A program made the position numbers and the translations under genes. The notes under the pieces are model-generated. The model was not told the origin of the DNA. It did no database searches and saw only the letters and a list, made by a program, of their open reading frames with translations. Source: Opitutales bacterium (lineage in GTDB: Bacteria; Verrucomicrobiota; Verrucomicrobiia; Opitutales; Oceanipulchritudinaceae). From it: a DNA stretch of 64,000 nucleotides. Numbering within the stretch: position 1 is the first letter of the stretch; every line of letters starts with the position of its first letter. The DNA is taken from positions 1 through 64,000 of the forward strand of contig SLLG01000056.1 in the NCBI GenBank assembly GCA_007134215.1, in the 5' to 3' direction. Shown here one piece after another: positions 23,761 to 46,085 of this stretch.

Positions 23761-25929
23761 ATGTCCATTCTGGCCATCATAATGGTGAAGAGCACAAAAA
23801 AACGGGCTCCCCGGAAGGCCGCTTATTTCAACCGCGAGTTGAGCTGGCTGGCGTTCAACCGCAGGGTACTGGAGCAGGCGGAGGACCAACGGTTTCCGCT
23901 ACTTGAGCGCCTGCGGTTTCTCTCTTTCGTGAGCTCCAACCTCGACGAATTTTTCGAAATCCGCGTCGCCGGGCTGATCCAGCAGGTGGAGGCCACTCAC
24001 ACCAAACCGGGAATGGACGGCATCGGCCCGAAAGAACAACTAAGGCGCATCCACTCCGTCACCACTTCGCTCGTCCAGGACAAATACCGCTGCTGGCACG
24101 GGCAGATTGTCCCGGCGCTCGCAAAAGAAGGCATCGTCTTCAAAACCCGGTCCGAGTTGACGCGCCGGGAACTGGACTGGCTGCGCCGGCACTTCGAGGA
24201 GCAAATCCAACCGGTACTCACACCACTCGCCGTCGATCCGGCGCACCCCTATCCCCAGTTCGGCAACAAGGCGCTCTACATTCTGCTCTGGCTTGACGAT
24301 CCGGACACCCCGACGGTGGACCGGATGCTCGCGTTCATCCCCGTGCCGCGGATACTCTCGCGCGTCGTGCGCATCCCGGGCAACCGGCGCGTGGCGGACA
24401 GCTACATCTTCCTCAGCGACGTCCTGAAAATCTTCGCGCCGAAGTTATTTCCCGGATACAAGATTCACTCCGTGCACGCCTTCCGTGTGACGCGTAACAG
24501 CGACCTTTACATCGACGAAGAGGAAGTCGAAAACCTCCTCCAGACGATCGAGGAGGAACTCTACAACATGCGCAAAGGCGCGGCCGTCCGCCTCGAGATC
24601 GAGGACGGGATCCCGGAAGAATTACTCGACGAATTGCTACGGGCGATCCACATGGCAAAGCAGCACGTCTTCCGTATCAACGGGCCGATCAATCTCATGC
24701 GTCTGACGAGCGTCTACGACATGATCGACCGCCCGGACCTAAAGTTTCCGCCATTCCATCCGTATTATCCGGAGGAACTGCGCGCGACGCGATATATTTA
24801 CGACGCGGTGCGCGAGAGCGATTTTCTGCTCCACCATCCGTACGACGCCTACGACCCCGTCGTCGACTTCGTGCGGCACGCGGCGGTGGACCCGGAGGTA
24901 TTGGCCATAAAGATTACGCTGTACCGAACAAGCTCTGACTCACCGATCGTGCAGGCCCTTGTCGACGCCGCCCGCAGCAACAAGCAGGTGACCGTTCTCA
25001 TCGAACTGAAAGCCCGCTTTGACGAAGCCGCAAACATCAACTGGGCGAAACAGCTCGAGGAGAACGGCGTCCATGTCGTCTATGGTTTTGTGGGACTGAA
25101 AACGCACTGCAAATGCTGCCTTGTCGTCCGCCGCGAGGACGGCGTGCTCCGGCGCTACGCGCATCTGGGAACGGGCAACTACCACACGAAGACAGCGCGT
25201 CAATACACAGACCTTAGCCTCCTCACCTGCCGCGAGGACATTACACAAGACGTCTCGGAGGTTTTCAATACCCTTACCGGATTCGCCAAGTCGCCCCGCT
25301 TTCAGAAGCTGCTCGTTGCTCCCTACACCCTGCACAACCGGATGAATGAGATGATCTCGCGAGAGGCGCGCAACGCGCGCAAAGGCAAACGGGCGCGCAT
25401 CCTCGTCAAATGCAACAGCCTGATCGACAAGGAGACGATCGACAACCTTTACGCGGCCTCGCGCGCCGGCGTGCAGATCGACCTCTTCATCCGTGGAATC
25501 TGCGGCCTCGTTCCAGGCGTCAAGGGGATGAGTGAAAACATCCGCGTGCGAAGCATCCTCGGTCGGTATCTGGAGCACTCCCGCATATACTACTTTGAAA
25601 ACAGCGGCGGGGAACACCCGCTTGTCTGGGTGGGCAGCGCCGATTGGATGGCGCGCAACTTCTACCGCCGTATCGAAGTGATCTTCCCCATCGAAAACGA
25701 AGCGTTGCGCGAACGCGTCATCCACGACATCCTCGCTCCCTACCAACGCGACACAGCGGCGGCAAAGCAACTGCGCCCCAACGGAAGCTACCGCCCGTTG
25801 ACCACTGGACGTGATGACGAGCCGTTTTCGGTGCAGAAATTTTTCCTCGCCACCGCAACGGAGAAAATCCACCGCATCATCGAGGAAAAGCAGGAAGCCG
25901 CGGAGATGAGCGCCGAGGCGGGCGGCTGA
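23761..25929 (+). CDS. ppk1: polyphosphate kinase 1
   Basis: Synthesises polyphosphate from ATP. 722 aa from 23761; an ATG at 23782 (MVKSTKKRAP) is equally possible and neither has a good ribosome-binding site. Domains in order: N domain starting YFNRELSWLAFNRRVL, head domain (about 115-320), and two PLD-like catalytic domains. The phosphorylated His lies in RYAHLGTGNYHTKTA; the second catalytic segment is around RYLEHSRIYYFENSGG. All PPK1 hallmarks are present. The CYTH/CHAD/ParA operon lies about 6 kb away on the other strand. Confidence 0.95.
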   Translation: MSILAIIMVKSTKKRAPRKAAYFNRELSWLAFNRRVLEQAEDQRFPLLERLRFLSFVSSNLDEFFEIRVAGLIQQVEATHTKPGMDGIGPKEQLRRIHSVTTSLVQDKYRCWHGQIVPALAKEGIVFKTRSELTRRELDWLRRHFEEQIQPVLTPLAVDPAHPYPQFGNKALYILLWLDDPDTPTVDRMLAFIPVPRILSRVVRIPGNRRVADSYIFLSDVLKIFAPKLFPGYKIHSVHAFRVTRNSDLYIDEEEVENLLQTIEEELYNMRKGAAVRLEIEDGIPEELLDELLRAIHMAKQHVFRINGPINLMRLTSVYDMIDRPDLKFPPFHPYYPEELRATRYIYDAVRESDFLLHHPYDAYDPVVDFVRHAAVDPEVLAIKITLYRTSSDSPIVQALVDAARSNKQVTVLIELKARFDEAANINWAKQLEENGVHVVYGFVGLKTHCKCCLVVRREDGVLRRYAHLGTGNYHTKTARQYTDLSLLTCREDITQDVSEVFNTLTGFAKSPRFQKLLVAPYTLHNRMNEMISREARNARKGKRARILVKCNSLIDKETIDNLYAASRAGVQIDLFIRGICGLVPGVKGMSENIRVRSILGRYLEHSRIYYFENSGGEHPLVWVGSADWMARNFYRRIEVIFPIENEALRERVIHDILAPYQRDTAAAKQLRPNGSYRPLTTGRDDEPFSVQKFFLATATEKIHRIIEEKQEAAEMSAEAGG

Positions 25930-31580: not shown

Positions 31581-32324
31581 CTAGTAGAGCTGATGCCGGA
31601 TTTCCGTCCACAGCGCCTGAAAGGCCCGGGCGGCGGCGGAGCGCCGGTCATAGACAAAAAGGGGCGCACGCTCCGGTCCCATCCGCTCGACGGCGGCGGA
31701 CATCGGAATGACCGATGAGAAAAACCGCGGATCGCTGTCGAGGGTCTCGTGGATCGTGGCCGAATGGAGTTTCTTCCGTCTCTCGGCCATCGAGAAAAAA
31801 GCACGCAAGCCGTCGCGCGGCAGCTTCTCCTTGCGGAGAAAGCGGTCGAGTTGCTCCCATGTGCGGAGGGAAAGCGTCGTCGGGATGACCGGGCAGAGCA
31901 GTAGATCCGCCGCCGCGATAATGTTTTCGGAAAGCAGCGTGATGTTGGGCGGAGCGTCGATGACCACGAGATCGTAGGCATCGGCAAGTGTCCGGAGCGA
32001 CTCGCCGAGGCGCTTTCGCGACCGTTTGCGGGCGTCGAGCTTGAGATCGAGATTGCGGAACCCCAGCTTGGCGGGCAGCAGGTCGAGGGCGGGGAAGTCC
32101 GACTCGCGGATCTGCCGGTCGAGCGCTTTGCCGCCCCGGATGAGCCGCTTGGCCCCGTGGCGCTTGCCCGCGCGCACGCGCAGGTAAAAGGTGGCAGCGG
32201 CCTGCGGATCGAGGTCGCAGAGGAGCGTGCGCCTGCCCTCCGCCGCCGCGAGGTAGGCGAGGTTCACGGCGGCGGCGGTCTTCCCCACCCCACCCTTGAT
32301 GTTGTATAGGGCGATGACCTTCAT
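31581..32324 (-). CDS. ParA/MinD-type ATPase linked to CYTH-CHAD genes
   Basis: 247 aa. Deviant Walker A KGGVGKT (10-16) with the signature lysine, Walker A' in LLCDLDPQ, Walker B region LVVIDAPP. This is the orphan ParA type, which makes nucleoid-bound gradients to place cargo, rather than a full chromosome ParA: there is no N-terminal helix-turn-helix and no parB beside it. The ATG overlaps the CHAD gene stop (ATGA), so the two are translated together. The adjacent CHAD protein is the obvious candidate adaptor or cargo. Confidence 0.88.
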   Translation of the reverse strand: MKVIALYNIKGGVGKTAAAVNLAYLAAAEGRRTLLCDLDPQAAATFYLRVRAGKRHGAKRLIRGGKALDRQIRESDFPALDLLPAKLGFRNLDLKLDARKRSRKRLGESLRTLADAYDLVVIDAPPNITLLSENIIAAADLLLCPVIPTTLSLRTWEQLDRFLRKEKLPRDGLRAFFSMAERRKKLHSATIHETLDSDPRFFSSVIPMSAAVERMGPERAPLFVYDRRSAAARAFQALWTEIRHQLY

Positions 32325-33892
32325 TTGAAATCGTCCTTTCCGCCGAAAAGCGCCTTCGCCCGCGCGCGCACGGAGGGCGCGTCGAGGCGGGAGAATGCCC
32401 GTCCGAACTTGGCACGCTCGGCGGCGCGCGCCCGGCCCAGCTCGGAGAGCAGACCGCCGAGCGAAGCCGCCAGCTCCGTCGATGTGCCCGCCTTCGCCTC
32501 GGCCGCCTCAAGGCGGCGGCGGACCCAGGTCTCCTGGTTGCAGAGGTCGTTGAAGCGGCCGAGGATATTCTGAAGTCTGCGGAACCGCTTCACGAACGAG
32601 GCCGTTTCCCCGGCAGGCAAAAGACTGCCGAAAAACTCAAGCAGGTAGCGCAGTTTCTTTACCTGGAGCCGCAGCTTGTGCAGGGCGGCGTCAGGCGTCT
32701 TCGCACCGATACCCCGCCCGTCCTTCAGTATGCGGCGGAAGCGTTTGCGCAGGAGTCGCTTGCCGAGCGCCTCGGCGGGCTCATTGGCGCGCGGTGCCGC
32801 GGCTTCCGCAGACGGTTCCAGAAACGCCCGCCAGTCGCGAAGAATCTCCATCGTCACGGGACGTTTGAGGAATTCGAGGCACCGGCGCAGGGCACGCTCC
32901 CTTTCCCGCTCCAATTGGCGGAACAGACCGTCAAGACCTGCGTGCAGCTCCAGCGGAAGCATCGCCTCGAAGGCCCCGCGCTCAAGCAGGTGGACATCGA
33001 GATCGCGCAGACGGTTCGTCGCGCGCTGAATTTCCGCGAGGTCCTTCCCGAAGCGCTTCTCAACGCGCGCCGGAAATACGCCCTTCACGAGCGACAAGGC
33101 GGAGCGGCTGCGCCGCAGCGCAACCCGGAAGTCATGCAGAAACTCCGTGTCGAGATCGTCGTAAATTCCCGGAAGATTGCGCTCCGCAGTATCGAGGGAA
33201 AAGAGGTGAATCCGCCTGCAGGCGTCTGCCGCCGTAATCCCCTGCGGCAAGTCCACCCGCGCCTTCGATGAATAGTCTCCCGGTTCCCGGCCCGCAGCGG
33301 CAAACGCAAGGCGCGCGGGATGGTCACTGCCTGCAACCGCACGGCACCCCATTTCCGCAAGGCAGGCGGCGGCCCCGCGTGCCTCCCCGGTATAACCCTT
33401 CAGCGGAATGAGCCGGAAACCTGCGGCGGACGACGGCTCGGCTCTTTCGCGCGGTTCTTTCGCCGATGCCTTCTCCCAGACAAGGCGGCAAACGGTCTTC
33501 CCGTCGTCGTTGCACAATGCGAGAAACTCGCGCGTCTCACGGAATCGGCCCATGGGCAGGACGGCACGGATTCCGCAGATCTTCCGCAAGTGATCGCGCA
33601 ACGCGCCGGGCGGAAAATCGCTCCAGAACCACCTGCGCGGCGCCGCCTTGCCCGGCTTTGCTTCCGCGACAATGGCACGGTCGTCGGTCCGCGACAAAAC
33701 CCACCGCGCCGGACGGGCAGATCGCGTCAACACCAATCCACTCTCCCACAACCGCCAGTCGAAGGTCTCGAAACACTGGGCCACCATGGACCGGCGGCCT
33801 TCCGGAACCACCTTGAAACGGTGGCGCACATCCGCGAGCACACGCCGGGCAAACCCCTCGTCCGTCACCCACCAGACCGCCGGTGAACTCAC
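32321..33892 (-). CDS. CHAD-domain protein with degenerate N-terminal CYTH-like domain
   Basis: 523 aa, starting at a GTG that overlaps the stop of the CYTH gene (GTGA). Residues 1 to about 190 resemble a decayed CYTH domain (FETFDWRLWESGLVLTRSARPARWVLSR) without an ExExK motif. The CHAD domain (about 210-490) is helical and basic with conserved histidines: LHDFRVALRRSRSALSLVKG, EIQRATNRLRDLDVHL, and LHKLRLQVKKLRYLLEFFG. CHAD domains bind polyphosphate and target proteins to polyphosphate granules. The gene is between CYTH and ParA genes and coupled to both. Confidence 0.88.
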   Translation of the reverse strand: MSSPAVWWVTDEGFARRVLADVRHRFKVVPEGRRSMVAQCFETFDWRLWESGLVLTRSARPARWVLSRTDDRAIVAEAKPGKAAPRRWFWSDFPPGALRDHLRKICGIRAVLPMGRFRETREFLALCNDDGKTVCRLVWEKASAKEPRERAEPSSAAGFRLIPLKGYTGEARGAAACLAEMGCRAVAGSDHPARLAFAAAGREPGDYSSKARVDLPQGITAADACRRIHLFSLDTAERNLPGIYDDLDTEFLHDFRVALRRSRSALSLVKGVFPARVEKRFGKDLAEIQRATNRLRDLDVHLLERGAFEAMLPLELHAGLDGLFRQLERERERALRRCLEFLKRPVTMEILRDWRAFLEPSAEAAAPRANEPAEALGKRLLRKRFRRILKDGRGIGAKTPDAALHKLRLQVKKLRYLLEFFGSLLPAGETASFVKRFRRLQNILGRFNDLCNQETWVRRRLEAAEAKAGTSTELAASLGGLLSELGRARAAERAKFGRAFSRLDAPSVRARAKALFGGKDDFK

Positions 33893-34392
33893 TGCCCGCC
33901 CCCTTCCATGCGTTCCGGCTCCGCGCCCCCGCTCCATTCGGCGTAGGGATGACGGGCGAGGTAAGCGTTGAAATACCGCGGGTCGCCGCTGACCTCGCGC
34001 TTCGCCCACGGAGGAACGTCGACTTCCTCGTCCTCACTCTCCAGTTCGACTTCGGCAAGAACGAGACCTTCGTTCGCCCCCCCGAAAACATCCACCTCCC
34101 AGAGGCGCCCGTCGTGGCGGTAGTAGCGCCGCGTCTTCGTCACCCGGCCGGGCAGCGAACAGGAACGCAGCAGCTCCCGTGCGTCTTCGAGCGGAATGGC
34201 GTACTCGAACTCGGCACGCGCGGTGCCCGCCCCGGTTCCCTTGAGGGTCAGAAGGGCCCGCTCGCCCGCGATCCGCACCCGTGCCGCGATCCGCCCGTGG
34301 TCCAGATAGCCCTGCTCCATTGGCACCGCTTTCTCCGGCTCGGGCAGCATCGCCGCCTCGACGAGGAACTTCCGTTCGATCTCAACGCCCAT
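33889..34392 (-). CDS. CYTH-domain protein (triphosphate tunnel metalloenzyme)
   Basis: 167 aa from the ATG at 34392. It starts with the tunnel-enzyme signature EIERKFLV (ExExK), then ARVRIAGERALLTLKG and the Asp/Glu-rich wall LAEVELESEDEEVDVP. Stand-alone bacterial CYTH proteins are usually inorganic triphosphatases (YgiF/NeuTTM type), acting on short polyphosphate; adenylate cyclase activity is rare. It is first in the coupled CYTH / CHAD / ParA operon. Confidence 0.9.
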   Translation of the reverse strand: MGVEIERKFLVEAAMLPEPEKAVPMEQGYLDHGRIAARVRIAGERALLTLKGTGAGTARAEFEYAIPLEDARELLRSCSLPGRVTKTRRYYRHDGRLWEVDVFGGANEGLVLAEVELESEDEEVDVPPWAKREVSGDPRYFNAYLARHPYAEWSGGAEPERMEGGGQ

Positions 34393-34586: not shown

Positions 34587-36854
34587 TCAGGATTTGACGG
34601 AAGTCTCTTCCTTGGTCTCGCCCCCCTGCGGTTCGCCGCCGTCCGCGACAATCTGCTCGGCGTCGTCCCCGGCAAAATAGTACTGCGAGTACGACTTGTC
34701 GTAGTAGTGCGAGTAGTAGTAGCCGGCAAAGCGGGTGTTGATGTTGTTCAGAACCGCCCCGAAGATCGGGATGTTGGACTCGCGCAGGCGGCGGATATTG
34801 AGGTTCGCCGTCTTCCGCTTGACCATGTTGAAGCGCACCACATACAGCACGCCATCGGCGAGCGGAAGCACGTTGAGCGCGTCGCTCACCGGAGCGAGCG
34901 GCGGCGAGTCGATGATCACTTTGTCATAGCGGAGGCGAAGCTCGTGAATTAGATTGGCAAAGCGCTCGCTGCTGAGCATCTGCGTCGGGCTTTTGCTGCG
35001 TCCGCCGGACGGAAGAATGTCCAAATTCGGGAGGTAATCCTTGATGATCACTTCCTCCAGCGTCTTGTCGCCGGTGAGGACATGGAGCGAACCCTGTTTC
35101 GCGTCCAGATCGAGGGACTTGGCGATGTTGGGCATGCGCAAGTCGGAATCAACGATGATCGTGCGCTCGCCATGGTTGGCGAATGTAATGGCCAAGTTAG
35201 TTGAAACAAAGGACTTACCCTCACTCGGAACCGTGCTGGTGGTGAGGATGACCTTGGCGTTCCGGCTCTCCTCATTGAGCTTGAGCGTGGAGACGATGGC
35301 GCGGAACGATTCGACAGTGTGCTTGTCCTGATTGTCGGCGACGATCCGCGCCTTCTCTGTCACATCCACCCGGCTGATCCGCGGCACGATCCCGATAAGC
35401 GGGAGGCCGATGGTTGATTCGATGTCGAAAGCCGTCTTGATCTTGTCGTCGAGAATCGCAAGGGCGAAGACAAGCCCGAGGCCCAGCCCGAAACCGGCAA
35501 CCAAACCGATGGCGAGATTGAGGGAAATATTCGGGCGGTAGGGACGCGCCGGGACGAGCGCCTCGTCCACGATCCGGGCAGTCTGCCCTTCGAGGGAGCC
35601 CTTCACCGTCGCCTGCTGGAGGCGGGAGTAGTAGTGGTCGTAAAGCTGCTTGCTGATGCCGAGATCGCGGAGAAGCGCATTGTACTCCGGGCGCAGGCGG
35701 TCAAGCTCAATAACTTCGCGCTCCTTCTCGGCGAGGCGCTCGCGGGAGTTTTCGAAGTTGGTGCGGGAGCGCTCATAGTCATTGCGGAAGCTGCGCGCGG
35801 CCTCACTGACGGCGGCGGTGAGTTCGTCCTGCGTGCGCTCCAGCGCTTCGCGGGCCGCGATCATGCGGGGATGCTTGTCGCGGAAACGCTTGCTCAGCGT
35901 CGCGACATCGATGCGAAGTGTGCGCATGCGTGTGAGCAACTCGGGGACCTGTGCGGTGCCGGCAATCGTCTTCAACTCATAGAGCGGGCGGCCTTCGTCC
36001 ATCGCGCGCTCGATCTGCAGCCATGCGGTGCGCGCCATGTCGTAGTTGCGACGGTCTTCCTGGAGCCGCGTGTTCAGGGCGATGAGTTGCTGGTTGTCGA
36101 TGTCCTGGTGCGCGTCGAAGGAGGTCGTGCCGTATTTGTCTTTGAAGTCGGCGAGGCGACGCTCCATGTCCTTGATCTTCACCAGTTCCTGGTCGGCCTG
36201 CTGGCGCAATTGGTCGACCGCGCGGCGGGAACCGTCGATCTGCTCGCGCAGAGAGTGCTCTAGGTAAGCCTCGGCGAAATAGTTGGCAACGGCCGCCGCC
36301 ACTTCCGGATTTGGGTGCGAGTAACCGATATTCACCATGAGGGACAGGCGCCGGGGCGAGATCGTCCGGTTGGAGAAGAGGATTTCCTCCGGGCTGCGCA
36401 TGCCGCGCAGAGAAACATCCAGACCTTCTTCGTAGGGAGCCATGAAACGGCGGAGTTCGTTGCCTTGCAGCCGCTTCCGCACCTCGCGCACCATGCTGAA
36501 ACTCTCCAGCACCTGCACCTGCGTGTTGAAGTCCTCCACGTTGTGGATCTTCTGATTGACGATGTCCTCAAACTGGACGGTGCGGTCTTTGTCGCGCAAC
36601 AGTTCGACCGACGCCACCGCACGGTACTGCTCCGGCGCGTTGAAGGTGTATAGCGCGACGCCGAGGAAGACGACGAAGACCGTGACGACGAGCCACCAAA
36701 TCCGTTCGCGGAGGATGACGAGGTAGTCTTTGAGTCCGCGCGAGGGCTGAACCGCGGCCTCGGCGTAACTGCCGTAGCCTTCGCCGTAGTAGTAGCCGCC
36801 GTAATAGCCGCCGCCGTAGCTTCCGTCGTTTCCGGGAGGAGGGGTCTTGTTCAT
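34587..36854 (-). CDS. polysaccharide co-polymerase / bacterial tyrosine autokinase (Wzc-like)
   Basis: 755 aa inner-membrane protein controlling exopolysaccharide polymerisation and export. Order: a cytoplasmic N-tail rich in Gly and Tyr (about 11-30), a membrane helix at about 52-72, a Wzz domain, a long periplasmic coiled coil (about 200-420) with the GNVR-like segment, a second helix at about 450, then the BY-kinase domain. Kinase motifs: Walker A VPSEGKSFVSTNLA, A' TIIVDSDLRMP, and B VIIDSPPLAPVSDA. The C-terminus carries the tyrosine cluster YYYSHYYDKSYSQYYF that BY-kinases phosphorylate. The N-terminal Tyr-Gly tail is unusual. Last gene of its operon. Confidence 0.93.
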   Translation of the reverse strand: MNKTPPPGNDGSYGGGYYGGYYYGEGYGSYAEAAVQPSRGLKDYLVILRERIWWLVVTVFVVFLGVALYTFNAPEQYRAVASVELLRDKDRTVQFEDIVNQKIHNVEDFNTQVQVLESFSMVREVRKRLQGNELRRFMAPYEEGLDVSLRGMRSPEEILFSNRTISPRRLSLMVNIGYSHPNPEVAAAVANYFAEAYLEHSLREQIDGSRRAVDQLRQQADQELVKIKDMERRLADFKDKYGTTSFDAHQDIDNQQLIALNTRLQEDRRNYDMARTAWLQIERAMDEGRPLYELKTIAGTAQVPELLTRMRTLRIDVATLSKRFRDKHPRMIAAREALERTQDELTAAVSEAARSFRNDYERSRTNFENSRERLAEKEREVIELDRLRPEYNALLRDLGISKQLYDHYYSRLQQATVKGSLEGQTARIVDEALVPARPYRPNISLNLAIGLVAGFGLGLGLVFALAILDDKIKTAFDIESTIGLPLIGIVPRISRVDVTEKARIVADNQDKHTVESFRAIVSTLKLNEESRNAKVILTTSTVPSEGKSFVSTNLAITFANHGERTIIVDSDLRMPNIAKSLDLDAKQGSLHVLTGDKTLEEVIIKDYLPNLDILPSGGRSKSPTQMLSSERFANLIHELRLRYDKVIIDSPPLAPVSDALNVLPLADGVLYVVRFNMVKRKTANLNIRRLRESNIPIFGAVLNNINTRFAGYYYSHYYDKSYSQYYFAGDDAEQIVADGGEPQGGETKEETSVKS

Positions 36855-36909
36855 TGCTAAATATGCGTTGTGTCAGATTATCAGAGTTGTCGGGCGAAAC
36901 CGCCGCGGC

Positions 36910-37506
36910 TCACCACATGCGCCGCGGCACGAAGATCAAATCGTTTTCCTGCAGCGGCATGTCCGTCGCGGAGATATCGTCGGCATTGACCGTGATCACC
37001 TCTTCCTGCCCGTCCGTGCCGATGCGCGTGATGCGGACGCGGCGCTTGTCGGCCAGATCATTACTGCGGAAACCACCCGCTGCGGCAATCGCCTGGAGGA
37101 GTGAAAGGGGCTGCTCCGACGGGAGAAAAACCTGCCCTTGCGCGTTCACCTGCCCCATGACCGTGACGGTTCGGGCGGCCGAAGTCAGAACAACCAAATC
37201 GATATGCGGCTCCACATAGTAGTCGCGGTTGTAGGGCTCATAGACAAAGCGCCGGGCCTCCTCCACCGTCAGGCCAGCCAAGGTCACTTGGTCCAGATAC
37301 GGCAGGGACACGGTCCCGCTGGACGAAACCCGCACCTCCGTGGAGAACTGCTGATCATCCGCCACGTAAAGAGTGACACGGACGACGTCGAGGGGCCGGA
37401 TCGTATAACTCCCCGAGGCATAGGTCATATTCTGACCCGCGACAGTGCCGATCGGGGCGAGGAGGGGAAAGAGAAGGAAAATCAGGAAACGGTGTGCTGT
37501 ATGCAT
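36910..37506 (-). CDS. polysaccharide export protein (Wza-like, SLBB domain)
   Basis: 198 aa from the ATG at 37506, with a signal peptide (1 to about 25). A Poly_export domain (about 32-105, YTIRPLDVVRVTLYVADDQQFSTEVRVSSSGTVSLPYL) is followed by one SLBB domain (about 115-180, VTVMGQVNAQGQVFLPSEQPLSLLQAIAAAGGF). It lacks the C-terminal barrel helix of E. coli Wza, so it is the short periplasmic/outer-membrane-lining type. It lies between the outer-membrane protein and the autokinase. Confidence 0.92.
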   Translation of the reverse strand: MHTAHRFLIFLLFPLLAPIGTVAGQNMTYASGSYTIRPLDVVRVTLYVADDQQFSTEVRVSSSGTVSLPYLDQVTLAGLTVEEARRFVYEPYNRDYYVEPHIDLVVLTSAARTVTVMGQVNAQGQVFLPSEQPLSLLQAIAAAGGFRSNDLADKRRVRITRIGTDGQEEVITVNADDISATDMPLQENDLIFVPRRMW

Positions 37507-37549
37507 GGCGATTGAAAGAAACGAAGAATTGAAGATGCGGAGAAAGGAA

Positions 37550-37582
37550 GGGGAGGTCAACACCGTAGTGCCTGACCTCCCC
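37550..37582 (-). promoter_or_regulatory. intercistronic hairpin in the exopolysaccharide operon
   Basis: A perfect 10-bp inverted repeat (GGGGAGGTCA / TGACCTCCCC) with a 13-base loop lies 30 bp after the stop of the outer-membrane protein gene and 44 bp before the SLBB gene. On the minus strand it is followed by TTCCTTTC, so it could be a partial terminator or an mRNA-processing hairpin that lowers expression of the last two genes. Confidence 0.6.
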
Positions 37583-37612
37583 CGGAAATTCTGCAAAGGA
37601 TCGAAGAAGACC

Positions 37613-38809
37613 TTAGTAACGGAGAGACGCCGAAACCGAGAGAATGTTCACCCGATAATCCGAACCAGCGTCCACCCGGTCGTTGTCGTCCACGCGCTGG
37701 TGGGTCAGCGAAGCGGAAAAGCGGACGTACTCGTTGGGATTGTAAACGAGCCCGGCACGCAGGAAGTAGCTGTCGTCGCGGCGGTCGATGCCCGAGTAGT
37801 CCGAGCGGTTGTAGCCGATCATCGTGTTGGCCGACCACATGGGCTGGAGCTGGAAGCGGCTGCCGAAGGAGATCTGTGCGCGGGAAAAATTACGCCCGCC
37901 GACCACACTATTGAGGTAATCGCGCTCGACCCGGAGGGTGTGCGACGAATTGACGGCGTTGTAAGTCAGGCCGACGTCGTAGGTCATGGAGTCGAGGGTC
38001 CTGCTGGGAACCGTCATGGGACCGAAAATCGTCTGAACTTGACGCTCCAAAAACTTCCGCTGCGTCCAACCGACCTTCACATCACCGACCCACATGGGGG
38101 AGCCCATCTGGCCGACAGCCCCGACATAGACGGAGTTGTCGCGGTAGTCTTGGTTGATCCCCTGCACAAACGGATTGAGGACATCAACCCGGCGGTAGAC
38201 ATAACCCACTTGCGCGTCGAGGCCCGGGCTGATCTGGTAGTAGCCGGAAACGGGGATCGAGTAGCTCTCGTGGCCGGAGGCGTTGTTCTGCTTGTACTCG
38301 CGGCGGTCGTAGTTGAACCCGAGCCCCATCGATGTGAGGTTGGTGAACATGTAGCGACCGTTCACGCCGAGAGCCGTCTCTTCGCGTTCGAGGAGACGGG
38401 CTTGGAGATTCGCATCCATATCGTTGGTCGCGCGCTCGTCGTAGCGGGCGTGGAAATTGATGCGGTATACCGACTCGTCGAGGCTGGCGTTGAAGAGGAG
38501 GTGGAGGAACTCGTCATTCAGGTCGGATTCGTCGGCCCAGCGGACAACCTCAGCCGAAGCAAAGAAGCTCGCCTGGGCAAGACCGCTGCCGAACTGAAGC
38601 TCGACGCCCGGCTCGAAGCGGAACCGGAAATCGTCGACACGGCCCGTGCGGTCGCGGAATACGTTGTCCTCGTAGCGGATCTCGGCAACGCCGGTGAGAA
38701 ACAGCGCGGCGTTGTCTCCGATGGCGACCATGGGAGCAGCGGACGCGGCCACCGGGAGGAAGCAAGCTCCGAGGAGCGGAAATGACATTAGTTTGGTTGG
38801 CGACTTCAT
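37613..38809 (-). CDS. outer-membrane beta-barrel protein of the exopolysaccharide operon
   Basis: 398 aa from the ATG at 38809, with a signal peptide (1 to about 25). The rest is a run of amphipathic beta strands (IRYEDNVFRD, VYRINFHARYDERATND, YVRFSASLTHQRVDDNDRVDAGSDYRVNILSVSASLRY) ending in an aromatic C-terminal residue. This is typical of a large outer-membrane barrel. Related proteins (EpsX or DUF560-like) sit beside wza/wzc genes and are thought to help pass the polymer. First gene of the operon. Confidence 0.8.
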   Translation of the reverse strand: MKSPTKLMSFPLLGACFLPVAASAAPMVAIGDNAALFLTGVAEIRYEDNVFRDRTGRVDDFRFRFEPGVELQFGSGLAQASFFASAEVVRWADESDLNDEFLHLLFNASLDESVYRINFHARYDERATNDMDANLQARLLEREETALGVNGRYMFTNLTSMGLGFNYDRREYKQNNASGHESYSIPVSGYYQISPGLDAQVGYVYRRVDVLNPFVQGINQDYRDNSVYVGAVGQMGSPMWVGDVKVGWTQRKFLERQVQTIFGPMTVPSRTLDSMTYDVGLTYNAVNSSHTLRVERDYLNSVVGGRNFSRAQISFGSRFQLQPMWSANTMIGYNRSDYSGIDRRDDSYFLRAGLVYNPNEYVRFSASLTHQRVDDNDRVDAGSDYRVNILSVSASLRY

Positions 38810-39092
38810 GATTGTGTTTGGAGTGTATTTGATCGAATGCGCGTTGGTTAAGAAACGTCCGCACAATGGAAAAGTTTGTGCGATAGGCTAGAAAAAAACG
38901 GTCAAACCGAAGGAGCAACCTTTTTTTCCAGTTTTCGGGGGGAGAGCATTGGCGTCCTTGCCCCGAACGGTCAAGCCCGTTATCCGTGTTTTCCCGCCGG
39001 TTTTTGTTCAATAAGGCGTTTTTTGCCTTTGGTGCCGCGAATGCGCGCTGCGGACTTGCTCCCGCCGAGACCATGGCTCAACGTGACCCGAT

Positions 39093-42326: not shown

Positions 42327-45300
42327 TCACTTTACTGGAGGACCCCACCCGCCGCCGCCGGGGGTTTCGAGGCGCAGACGGTCACCGGGGGCAGCGTGGA
42401 AGGCGGTGATGCCGTCGAGTTCCGTCGCCTCTTCCCCCGCCCGGAGCCAAACCTGACGTCCGCGCGCGCCGGGCGATCCGCCCTCGCGGCCGTAGGGAGC
42501 TTCGACGCGGTGCTGCGTGACGAGGGAGACTTCGACGGGGGCAAGAAACTCGATCTCGCGCACAAGACCGTCGCCCCCGCGGTGCGCGCCCGCGCCGCCC
42601 GATCCACGCCGCAGGGCGAAACACCGCAGACGCGCGGGGTAGCGCAGTTCGAGGACCTCGGGATCGGTGATCGCGGTGTTCGTCATGTGCACCTGCACCC
42701 CCGACGCGCCGCCGTAGCCGGGCCCCGCCCCGCAGCCGCCGCCGACGGTCTCGTAGTAGCCGAAGCGTTCGTTCCCGAACAGAAGATTGTTCATCGTACC
42801 CTGCGAGCACGCCGCCTCGCCGAAGGCTTTGAAGAGGGTGTCCACGAGCCGCTGGCTCGTTTCCACATTGCCCCCCACGACGGCGGGCATCGAATCCGCC
42901 GCGCCCTCGAAAGCGGGAGCGAGAAACGTGCCCTCCGCGCGGACGCGCACCGCTTCCATCAAGCCTTCATTGAGCGGAAAATCGCCGCCCGCGAGACACC
43001 GCAGGACATAAAGCACCGCGCTCGCGACGATGCCCTCCGTCGCGTTGAGGTTGCCGGGATGCCGTCGACCGGAGCGCGTCAAATCCAGTTCGAGGCACCC
43101 GCCCGCGCAGCGCCATCGCAAAACAATCGGCGTTCCGTCATCGAGACGCTCCTCCGCCTCGCCCGCACGCCCGACAAGCGTCTCCAGCCACCGCTCCATG
43201 CCGTCGCGCGCGATCCGCCTCAACTCTGCGAACCATCCTTGTAGGGCCCCGGCGTCGACCTCCGCCTCGAGAACGCGGAGGCGCTCCCCGCCGAGCCGCA
43301 GGGCGGCCACCTGAGCCTGAAGATCGAGCAGATTTTCCCGCGGATTGCGGCTGGGATACGGCCCGGACCGCAGCAGCGCGTCCAGCCCGTCGAGATCGAG
43401 CCGCCCTCCGCGCGCAAGCAACCGTGGTGCGATGAGAATCCCCTCCTCGGCGAGCGTGCGCGCCTCGGGCGGCATGGAGCCGGGCCGCCGTCCGCCCACC
43501 TCGGCGTGGTGGGCGCGCGTGACGAGGTAGGCGAAAGACCGGCCCCGGCGGTCAAACACCGGGGCCACGGCGGTGATGTCCGGCAGGTGGGAACCGCCGT
43601 AGCCGGGATGGTTCGTCACCCAGATATCCCCCGCCTCCGGTTCCCCGAACTCCGCGCGGAGCGAGCGCACGCAGGTCCCCATTGCACCAAGGTGCACCGG
43701 AATGTGCGGGGCGTTGACGACGAGCCGCCCCTCCGCGTCGAGGAGCGCGCAGGAAAAATCGAGCCGCTCACGGATATTCACCGACACTGCCGTGCGCCGC
43801 AGCTGGTCGCCCATTTCCTCGACGACGGAACGGAAACGGTTGGCGAACAACTCGCGGCTCACAGCATCGCGTTTCGTCGCCTCTGGAGCACCGGACGCGG
43901 GCCGCCGGACCTCCGCCGTGAGTTTCAGCGAACCCAGCGACCCGGTCACGCCCGACCAACCAGGCTCGACAACCAGCGTGCTGAACGCGTCGTAGACCAC
44001 GCACGGGCCCTCCACGCGCGCTCCCGGCGGAAGGGCATCCCGCTCGTAGACCGCCGCCTCGCACCAGTCACCGCCGACATGCAGGCGCGCGCGGCGCCTC
44101 GGCTCGGCGGCAGGACCGTCCGGGAACGATTCCTTCCCGGACGGCGGTGTGGCCGCCCGGCACACGGCGGAAAGCGCGACGACCTCCACGCGTCCGCCCT
44201 CCGGCGCATAGCCAAAGACAGCCTCGTGCCGCCCGCGGAACGCTCCCGCTAGATCGGCGCCGGGTGTCCACGGCAGCCGCAACGCGTGTTCCTGACCGGC
44301 AAAGCGCAGCTCCGCCTCGAAAGCGGTCTCGCTCACCGCCGCTCCGTCACGCCCGAGAGTCTCGCCCGCCTCGCGCCCCAGAGCCTCCATCCAATCCGCG
44401 ACCTCTTCCGCGCACTCGTCAAGCGGTCGCAGGATCTGCCGCGCCGCGCGGCTTTCCTCCGCCGCGTGCAGGATGCCCAGCGCGCTCAACAAACCGGCGT
44501 CGGCCGGCATGAGAATCGTCTCCATGCCGAGAAGTTCCGCCACCGCGCAGGCGTGCAGCCCGCCGGCGCCGCCGAAGACGAGCAGCGCGTGTTCGCGCGG
44601 ATCGTAGCCCTCGCGCACGCTGATCGTCCGCGCCACCTGGGCCATGCGCTCGTTTGCGATGCGCAGGAAGCCAGCAAGCATGCGTTCGCGGTCGAGCCCG
44701 GCCGCACAGGCGAGTTCGTCCGCCGCGCGTTCGGCGGCGCCGCTGTCGAGCGGAATCTGGAAGGCGGCAGGATCGAGGCGGCCGAGGAGCAGATGGACGT
44801 CCGTCAGCGCGAGCGGCCCGCCACGTCCGTAGCAAGCCGGCCCCGGATCGGCCCCCGCGCTCTCCGGACCCACCGTAACCGTTTCCCCCGCGACGGCGCA
44901 GACGCTTCCCCCGCCCGCCGCCACCGTCTCGATGTGCAGGGAGGGCGCGATAACGCGCGCCGGACCGACCTTGCGCGAACGCCGCAGGGAGAAACCGCCC
45001 GCCCACCGCGACACATCCGTGCTCGTGCCCCCCATATCGAAGGCGATCAACCGCTCGAGCCCCGCCCGCGCCGCGCAGTGGGCCGCCCCCGCGAGCCCGC
45101 CCGCTGGCCCGCTGAGCAGGCTGTCGACGGGATGAAAGCGCCCGCGCGGCAGTAATCCGCCTGCGCTGTTCATGACAAGCAGGCGGCTGCCCGCGGCGAG
45201 TCCGCCCTCTACAGCGTCGAGATAGGATTGCATCACCGGGCCGAGCGATGCGTCGACAACCGCCGTCTCCGCGCGGTCAAGGTATTTGATGAACGGGCAG

Positions 45301-46085
45301 AGGACGGCGGATTCGACAACCGTCGCAAACCCCGCCTCCCGCAGAAGCGCGGCAACGCTCCGCTCGTGACTGCCGTTGCGGTAGGCATTGAGGAGCGCGA
45401 CCGCCGCCACCGTGCAGCCCGCCTCTCGCGCCTTCGCGAAGGGCTCGGCCAGCGAAGCCTCGTCCATGGGCTCGATTTCCCGCCCTTCCGCGTCGATCCG
45501 CCCGGCCACGCCAACGATCCGCGCCGGCTCGAGGCGCTCCTTCACCACGCGCAGGGCGAAGAGGTCCGGACGGCGTTGGTCGCCGATGGCCAGCAGGTCT
45601 TCGAAACCCGCCGTCACGACAAGACACACCGGCGCGCTTTTGCCCTCGAGGAGAGCGTTTGTCCCCTTCGTCGTGCCGAGCCGGAAATCACTCGGCGGAA
45701 GCGGCTCGCGCGTCGGCGTGCCGGTGAGCAGGCGCGCGCCAAAGACAGGGGCCTCCTCGCCGGTCTCCACAGAAAACAGATCCCCTTCCCCCGCGTCCCG
45801 CGATGCCGCGGCATCCAGCTCCAGCACGTCCGCCCCGTGCTTGGTGACGCCCCGGCGCGTGCCGTCGGCGAATTCAACCCGCGCACCCTCGAGAAAACCT
45901 TCGGGGAGCGCCCAGCCGGCCTCGTAGAACAGGCGACGCCCCTCCGCGCGAGCGATCCGCGCCCGGAGCCGGCCCGAGGAGAGCAGCTTGGCCCGCCGGA
46001 ATGAACCGTCGGGCGCATAGCCGAGGCAATCGGTGAACGTCCCGCCGGTGTCGACGGCAATCCTCCAGCGCCCGCCCCCGCTCAT
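42327..46085 (-). CDS. 5-oxoprolinase / hydantoinase, HyuA-HyuB fusion
   Basis: ATP-dependent opening of 5-oxoproline or related cyclic amides. 1252 aa. The N-terminal HyuA half (1 to about 690) has VDTGGTFTDCLGY, TTKGTNALLEGK and the ASKHA segment IAFDMGGTSTDVS. The HyuB half (about 710-1250) has FANRFRSVVEEMGDQLRRTAVSVNIRERLDFSCALLD and HIPVHLGAMG, and ends RLETPGGGGWG. Both halves are intact and fused, as in eukaryotic oxoprolinase. It is coupled by ATGA to the YgjP-like gene upstream. Confidence 0.92.
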   Translation of the reverse strand: MSGGGRWRIAVDTGGTFTDCLGYAPDGSFRRAKLLSSGRLRARIARAEGRRLFYEAGWALPEGFLEGARVEFADGTRRGVTKHGADVLELDAAASRDAGEGDLFSVETGEEAPVFGARLLTGTPTREPLPPSDFRLGTTKGTNALLEGKSAPVCLVVTAGFEDLLAIGDQRRPDLFALRVVKERLEPARIVGVAGRIDAEGREIEPMDEASLAEPFAKAREAGCTVAAVALLNAYRNGSHERSVAALLREAGFATVVESAVLCPFIKYLDRAETAVVDASLGPVMQSYLDAVEGGLAAGSRLLVMNSAGGLLPRGRFHPVDSLLSGPAGGLAGAAHCAARAGLERLIAFDMGGTSTDVSRWAGGFSLRRSRKVGPARVIAPSLHIETVAAGGGSVCAVAGETVTVGPESAGADPGPACYGRGGPLALTDVHLLLGRLDPAAFQIPLDSGAAERAADELACAAGLDRERMLAGFLRIANERMAQVARTISVREGYDPREHALLVFGGAGGLHACAVAELLGMETILMPADAGLLSALGILHAAEESRAARQILRPLDECAEEVADWMEALGREAGETLGRDGAAVSETAFEAELRFAGQEHALRLPWTPGADLAGAFRGRHEAVFGYAPEGGRVEVVALSAVCRAATPPSGKESFPDGPAAEPRRRARLHVGGDWCEAAVYERDALPPGARVEGPCVVYDAFSTLVVEPGWSGVTGSLGSLKLTAEVRRPASGAPEATKRDAVSRELFANRFRSVVEEMGDQLRRTAVSVNIRERLDFSCALLDAEGRLVVNAPHIPVHLGAMGTCVRSLRAEFGEPEAGDIWVTNHPGYGGSHLPDITAVAPVFDRRGRSFAYLVTRAHHAEVGGRRPGSMPPEARTLAEEGILIAPRLLARGGRLDLDGLDALLRSGPYPSRNPRENLLDLQAQVAALRLGGERLRVLEAEVDAGALQGWFAELRRIARDGMERWLETLVGRAGEAEERLDDGTPIVLRWRCAGGCLELDLTRSGRRHPGNLNATEGIVASAVLYVLRCLAGGDFPLNEGLMEAVRVRAEGTFLAPAFEGAADSMPAVVGGNVETSQRLVDTLFKAFGEAACSQGTMNNLLFGNERFGYYETVGGGCGAGPGYGGASGVQVHMTNTAITDPEVLELRYPARLRCFALRRGSGGAGAHRGGDGLVREIEFLAPVEVSLVTQHRVEAPYGREGGSPGARGRQVWLRAGEEATELDGITAFHAAPGDRLRLETPGGGGWGPPVK

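Follow-up and report, generated by a model that had tools for sequence, protein, structure and literature searches.

Three minus-strand genes at 31581–34392 of the window (a 64,000-nucleotide stretch of contig SLLG01000056.1 from an Opitutales bacterium) form one operon, in the order CYTH, CHAD, ParA. The pairing of this type of CHAD protein with this type of ParA ATPase is conserved far outside Verrucomicrobiota, and its link to polyphosphate (polyP) is close to certain. We think it likely, with real room for doubt, that the operon serves ParA-driven, nucleoid-based positioning or partitioning of polyP granules, with the CHAD protein as the granule-binding partner. ParA-type ATPases as a family distribute cargo within bacterial cells. 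For the broader proposal our preference is slighter: that a so far unnamed and widespread ParA system may actively partition polyP granules in bacteria and some archaea, through an adaptor that combines a dead triphosphate-tunnel domain with a polyP-threading CHAD domain.

The operon and its three products

The features of the operon are collected in Table 1. The original prediction had described three genes coupled by GTGA and ATGA overlaps, with ppk1 about 6 kb away on the opposite strand; the overlaps are exact, and ppk1 lies 5.7 kb from the ParA end of the operon. The CYTH gene ends in ...GGGCAGTGA, whose GTG (33892) is the CHAD start codon, and the CHAD gene ends in ...TTCAAATGA, whose ATG (32324) is the start codon of ParA. 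The source genome contains one CHAD gene, one ppk1 and, elsewhere, a separate Soj-like ParA. The stretch directly upstream of CYTH, at 34587–38866 (-), is probably an exopolysaccharide export cluster: its ORFs resemble a tyrosine kinase of the Wzc type, a short protein of the polysaccharide-export type and a protein of the outer-membrane type; the ATPase part of the kinase ORF matches weakly in ParA searches. Further off, a single 1252-aa ORF at 42327–46085 (-) resembles a hydantoinase/oxoprolinase in which A and B are fused.

Table 1 Features of the CYTH–CHAD–ParA operon and the ppk1 gene, in window coordinates.
Feature	Position	Strand	Description
CYTH gene	33889..34392	-	stand-alone CYTH/TTM protein, 167 aa
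ExExK motif EIERK (residues 4-8 of CYTH protein)	34369..34383	-	
GTGA overlap	33889..33892	-	CYTH stop / CHAD GTG start
CHAD gene	32321..33892	-	523 aa; N-terminal TTM-like domain without ExExK
N-terminal domain of CHAD protein (residues 1-205)	33278..33892	-	predicted TTM/CYTH-like fold, ExExK absent
CHAD domain (residues 208-506)	32375..33271	-	polyP-binding residues conserved
ATGA overlap	32321..32324	-	CHAD stop / ParA start
ParA gene	31581..32324	-	deviant Walker A ATPase, 247 aa, distinct subfamily
Deviant Walker A motif KGGVGKT (residues 10-16 of ParA)	32277..32297	-	invariant in 44/44 subfamily members
ppk1 (polyphosphate kinase 1)	23761..25929	+	5.7 kb from ParA end of operon

The stand-alone CYTH protein combines a Pfam CYTH match (4.7e-15) with the intact ExExK motif that had been predicted for it, and thus has both sequence marks of an active TTM/CYTH phosphatase. 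Its closest solved relative is NE1496 (2fbl/3typ; phmmer 1e-18). ExExK is present in 28 of 29 stand-alone CYTH proteins at related loci, and the single exception probably reflects a mis-set start.

The CHAD protein matches the Pfam CHAD family over residues 233–457 (1.3e-49). Its CHAD domain is 37% identical to that of CtCHAD from Chlorobium tepidum (Q8KE09), with a phmmer value of 4.5e-53 and TM-scores of 0.93–0.94 against structures 6qv7 and 6qva, the latter with polyP bound. CtCHAD comprises residues 208–522 of Q8KE09, and its polyP contacts H253, R256, R260 and R296 have been probed by mutation (PMC6537752). These four residues carry identical numbers in the window protein and, together with R415/Y416 (window numbering), are invariant in 51 of 51 family sequences; R415/Y416 probably correspond to R418/Y419 of CtCHAD. 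The window protein thus has both the fold and the contact residues of a polyP-binding CHAD protein. Its N-terminal domain was predicted to be a degenerate CYTH-like domain, and this stands as regards the fold: the AlphaFold2 model (mean pLDDT 92) matches ygiF and thiamine triphosphatases in Foldseek. It does not stand as regards sequence similarity, since neither Pfam nor profile comparison with a CYTH alignment detected any to CYTH in the N-terminal ~205 residues; the kinship therefore rests on the predicted fold. ExExK, sought in the first 90 residues, is absent in 48 of 51 family members including the window protein, and the other three have scattered matches.

The ParA protein matches Pfam AAA_31 (3.8e-35) and has the KGGxGK[ST] motif of ParA/MinD ATPases with its signature lysine, K10-GGVGK-T16. 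Its model (pLDDT 91) retrieves Soj structures first in a fold search of the PDB (TM 0.86–0.89) and McdA next. Conservation in the subfamily extends to the P-loop, the DxD motif and two basic residues, R183 and R219. For comparison with Soj we took the presumed positions of its two DNA-binding arginines: in the phmmer alignment to a solved ParA, R183 aligns with one of these presumed positions, and at the other the arginine is replaced, with the conserved R219 eight positions off. Among the relatives searched, close kin of the window ParA score at 47% identity or above and E<1e-60, other ParAs at ~1e-25, and in a second phylum the corresponding scores are 291 bits for the subfamily against 149 for other ParAs. 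One branch (SH-aLRT 100) divides 44 members of the subfamily from 46 other ParAs in a tree of both sets. Judged from these sequences, the subfamily is one clade distinct from Soj-like ParAs. The window ParA reaches no NCBIfam equivalog, its best score being 93.7 bits where the cut-off is 180. It had been described as an orphan without parB or helix-turn-helix, and this agrees with what we find: Pfam detects no HTH domain in it, and the adjacent ParB of ParABS systems was not seen beside it or its relatives, with a ParB motif near none of the 80 CHAD loci described below compared to 20 of 47 control loci of other ParAs. A role as a defence system is unsupported, as PADLOC gave a weak P-loop match only.

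Conservation of the CHAD–ParA pair and its exceptions

We scanned 84,980 species genomes with a CHAD alignment and kept the best 80 loci, selected by CHAD similarity alone and including one from the window's own genus. In 75 of the 80 the same ParA subfamily is encoded directly downstream, two of these with a broken ParA frame. Three loci run off the contig 128–362 bp past CHAD, and two are truly without ParA. At L129:5639-6379 and L161:5541-6379 the ParA frame is split between two ORFs, which may reflect either decay or an error in sequencing. The loci come from Desulfobacterota, Geobacter, KSB1, Calditrichota, Dadabacteria, Gemmatimonadota, Chloroflexota, Planctomycetota and a methanophagalean archaeon. 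Of the 75 pairs, 29 have an overlap of exactly 4 bp between the CHAD stop and the ParA start, and in 54 the two are at most 30 bp apart. One Desulfocapsa MAG has two loci (L144 and L158), each with both genes.

In the window's phylum, 388 sampled genomes include 16 with the subfamily ParA, 19 with the CHAD clade and 13 with both, and in every one of the 13 CHAD precedes ParA as its neighbour. Membership of the CHAD clade here means a match to the window protein with E about 1e-40 or lower; this limit was set after the scores had been seen, and G215 counts as a carrier with its gene split over contig ends. The co-occurrence (13/3/6/366) gives a Fisher p of 2.5e-17, kinship not being corrected for. 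The proposed check, whether CHAD is conserved beside parA among Verrucomicrobia, could have overturned the original prediction and did not, the pair being present in 13 of 16 carriers in the phylum and in many phyla besides. The pairing goes beyond chance: none of 47 other ParA genes has CHAD beside it. Nor does a ParA adjoin any of the 14 CHAD proteins of the window's phylum that are more distant. When searches started from ParA, CHAD was adjacent in 5 of 6 cases in the phylum to which Desulfosediminicola belongs, in 2 of 2 cases from the archaeal phylum, in 6 of 7 from the phylum with the Anaerolineae locus and in 12 of 24 from the Geobacter family, where the other half of the ParAs have no CHAD next to them. 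Across 84 pairs, the CHAD and ParA trees have 43 of 81 splits in common, a grouping of Latescibacteria with Gemmatimonadota among them, and the Mantel correlation is 0.75 compared to a permutation maximum of 0.14. The common splits reflect species history in part.

The exceptions fall on both sides of the pair. Six genomes of the window's phylum keep the CHAD clade, often behind NUDIX, without ParA. Three genomes have the subfamily ParA and no CHAD detectable in the genome at E<=1e-10: in G037 and G253, two genomes of one genus (L057, L058), ParA lies behind an SNF2 helicase, and in G466 it adjoins a coiled-coil PAS protein. G423 keeps ParA–NUDIX, and upstream of these a remnant of CHAD survives, 58 residues from its C-terminus. 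At L234:4573-6008 a 206-aa coiled-coil and PAS protein occupies the place of CHAD beside the subfamily ParA, possibly through a change of partner. At L235:2265-2618 (G614) a lysine-rich 117-aa protein precedes ParA, and the CHAD gene of this genome lies at the ends of two other contigs, followed by CYTH–NUDIX. For the Geobacter-family ParAs without adjacent CHAD we inspected five regions: four have ppk1 at a distance of 3.6–13.5 kb, and three of these four also have a short CHAD and a SixA-like gene further on. The polyP link of ParA thus does not depend on CHAD adjacency alone.

These data bear on one alternative, in which the two genes are together through operonic convenience or genomic hitch-hiking while this ParA carries out ordinary DNA partitioning, for instance that of a one-time mobile element. 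Membership of the ParA superfamily and the six genomes that keep CHAD without ParA would fit such a reading, but it is contradicted by the recurrence of the pair in many phyla with common tree splits. The missing ParB motif and the ppk1 linkage that remains where CHAD is not adjacent also count against it. We regard it as highly improbable.

Polyphosphate genes, a proposed model of granule positioning and its alternatives

Of the 80 CHAD loci, 18 have ppk1 within 4 kb; at the same distance 16 have ppk2, 11 ppx, 29 CYTH, 16 NUDIX and 30 a SixA-like histidine phosphatase. Pfam scans of the adjoining proteins confirm the PPK1, PPK2, Ppx, CYTH and NUDIX assignments. In L233 the gene order is ppk1–CHAD–ParA–CYTH–NUDIX. 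Elsewhere ppk1 lies immediately upstream of CHAD (e.g. L123, L125, L126, L128, L133, L177 and L183), and it overlaps or abuts CHAD in several phyla, with the archaeal locus L128 among them. No ppk1, ppk2, ppx, CYTH, NUDIX or SixA-like gene occurs in the 1.5-kb flanks of the 47 control loci of other ParAs. Conservation of the pair across phyla and the repeated appearance of these neighbours strongly support the connection to polyP that had been proposed for the operon. Across these loci CYTH is frequent yet not obligatory, so that CHAD–ParA is the core. Nor is ppk1 obligatory, as it is absent from G215 and Desulfosediminicola (G427). In L132, L140, L154, L160, L179 and other Desulfobulbales loci argJ is directly upstream of CHAD–ParA, and ArgJ accounts for 13 of 116 neighbour proteins scanned.

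The pairing, the polyP gene context and the conserved polyP-binding and ATPase residues are features of the sequences themselves. From knowledge of the protein families we infer a model in which CHAD would act as a ParA-activating adaptor for granule positioning and CYTH as a trimmer. ParA would bind ATP, dimerize and coat the nucleoid. The CHAD protein would grip polyP chains at the granule surface by threading them through its basic central pore, and would contact ParA, probably via the inactive TTM-like domain, and stimulate its ATPase activity. Granules would then track and clear the ParA gradient, which would keep them apart and let both daughter cells inherit them evenly. The stand-alone CYTH protein, or NUDIX at other loci, may trim short chains. 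Several observations count against positioning. There are the exceptions on both sides of the pair described above, the Geobacter-family ParAs without adjacent CHAD included. Of the two presumed arginine positions of Soj, only one aligns with a conserved basic residue. The N-terminus of CHAD (about 26 residues) is not basic, with a mean net charge of -0.6 (range -4 to 4), unlike known ParA partners, which touch their ATPase via a positively charged N-terminus (PMC12204374).

The lack of this basic tail, together with neighbours that for the most part make polyP or break it down, would suit a different role, in which ParA is a non-positional ATP-sensing switch whose ATP/ADP state gates a CHAD–Ppk–Ppx–CYTH complex and couples polyP synthesis and breakdown to energy charge. 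FleN and similar relatives of ParA are likewise regulators rather than movers. We consider such a switch unlikely, given that the fold is nearest to Soj and McdA, that the basic R183 and R219 are kept, and that the pairing of ParA with the polyP-binding protein is far more regular than its association with any single enzyme. The many loci with ppk1 immediately upstream of CHAD could also mean that ParA holds the machinery of polyP synthesis, as a complex, at one fixed site, the pole or a spot on the nucleoid, with no partitioning of granules. BcsQ is thought to anchor cellulose synthesis in such a way. BcsQ structures rank below Soj and McdA in the fold search, however, and the ParA C-termini inspected show no conserved C-terminal extension, which makes static anchoring more doubtful still.

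Granule positioning by CHAD–ParA would answer to a gap in the literature. A 2025 review names AlgP as the polyP positioning factor, leaves open whether granule localization needs energy or ATP, and allows that further proteins may await discovery (PMC13052382). The ParA ATPase and its CHAD partner are named, widespread candidates for this question, with conserved residues, and cultured carriers exist in Cerasicoccus maritimus, C. frondis and Desulfosediminicola flagellatus. A survey of multiple ParA/MinD ATPases assigned cargo by gene neighbourhood and mentions neither polyphosphate nor CHAD (PMC10241942), and loss of CHAD proteins in Ralstonia and E. coli gave no apparent phenotype (PMC6537752). 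In searches of openly licensed PMC papers we found none describing the CHAD–ParA pair. If the positioning model is correct, it would give a large group of CHAD proteins a cellular role, and for the first time an ATP-driven system would be seen to position a granule of inorganic polymer.

Comparison with known positioning and polyphosphate systems

In Pseudomonas aeruginosa, AlgP affects how evenly polyP granules are spaced along the nucleoid (PMC9239181), but it is a histone H1-like DNA-binding protein and no ATPase, unlike ParA. Among polyP-binding proteins, CtCHAD has the same residue layout and polyP contacts as the window CHAD protein, and the literature examined on CtCHAD, phosins and CHAD reports that they bind polyP and attach to granules, and mentions no ParA partner. 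The active TTM–CHAD polyphosphatases of the ygiF type have the same arrangement, a TTM-like domain followed by CHAD, but in most of the present family the N-terminal domain lacks ExExK; here catalysis may come from the separate CYTH gene.

With Soj/ParA of chromosomal ParABS systems, the window ParA has in common the fold, the deviant Walker A motif, DxD and one arginine aligned with a presumed DNA-binding position; it differs in its separate clade, the lack of a ParB motif nearby and the polyP gene context. McdAB resembles CHAD–ParA in that a ParA-type ATPase is encoded with a cargo-binding partner, presumably without parS DNA in the case of CHAD–ParA, and in that the cargo, the carboxysome there and by proposal the polyP granule here, is organelle-like. 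The pair of ATPase and cargo-binding protein that characterizes McdAB recurs at 75 of the 80 loci, with polyP binding known from relatives of the CHAD protein. The positively charged N-terminus by which such a partner contacts its ATPase is not found in CHAD: McdB is largely disordered with a basic N-terminus, whereas the CHAD partner is folded, with TTM-like and CHAD domains. The proposed cargo, an inorganic polymer granule, is also unlike that of McdAB, and in the fold ranking for this ParA, Soj comes ahead of McdA. McdAB would nevertheless be the closest working analogy for CHAD–ParA, with a partner and a cargo that are both new.
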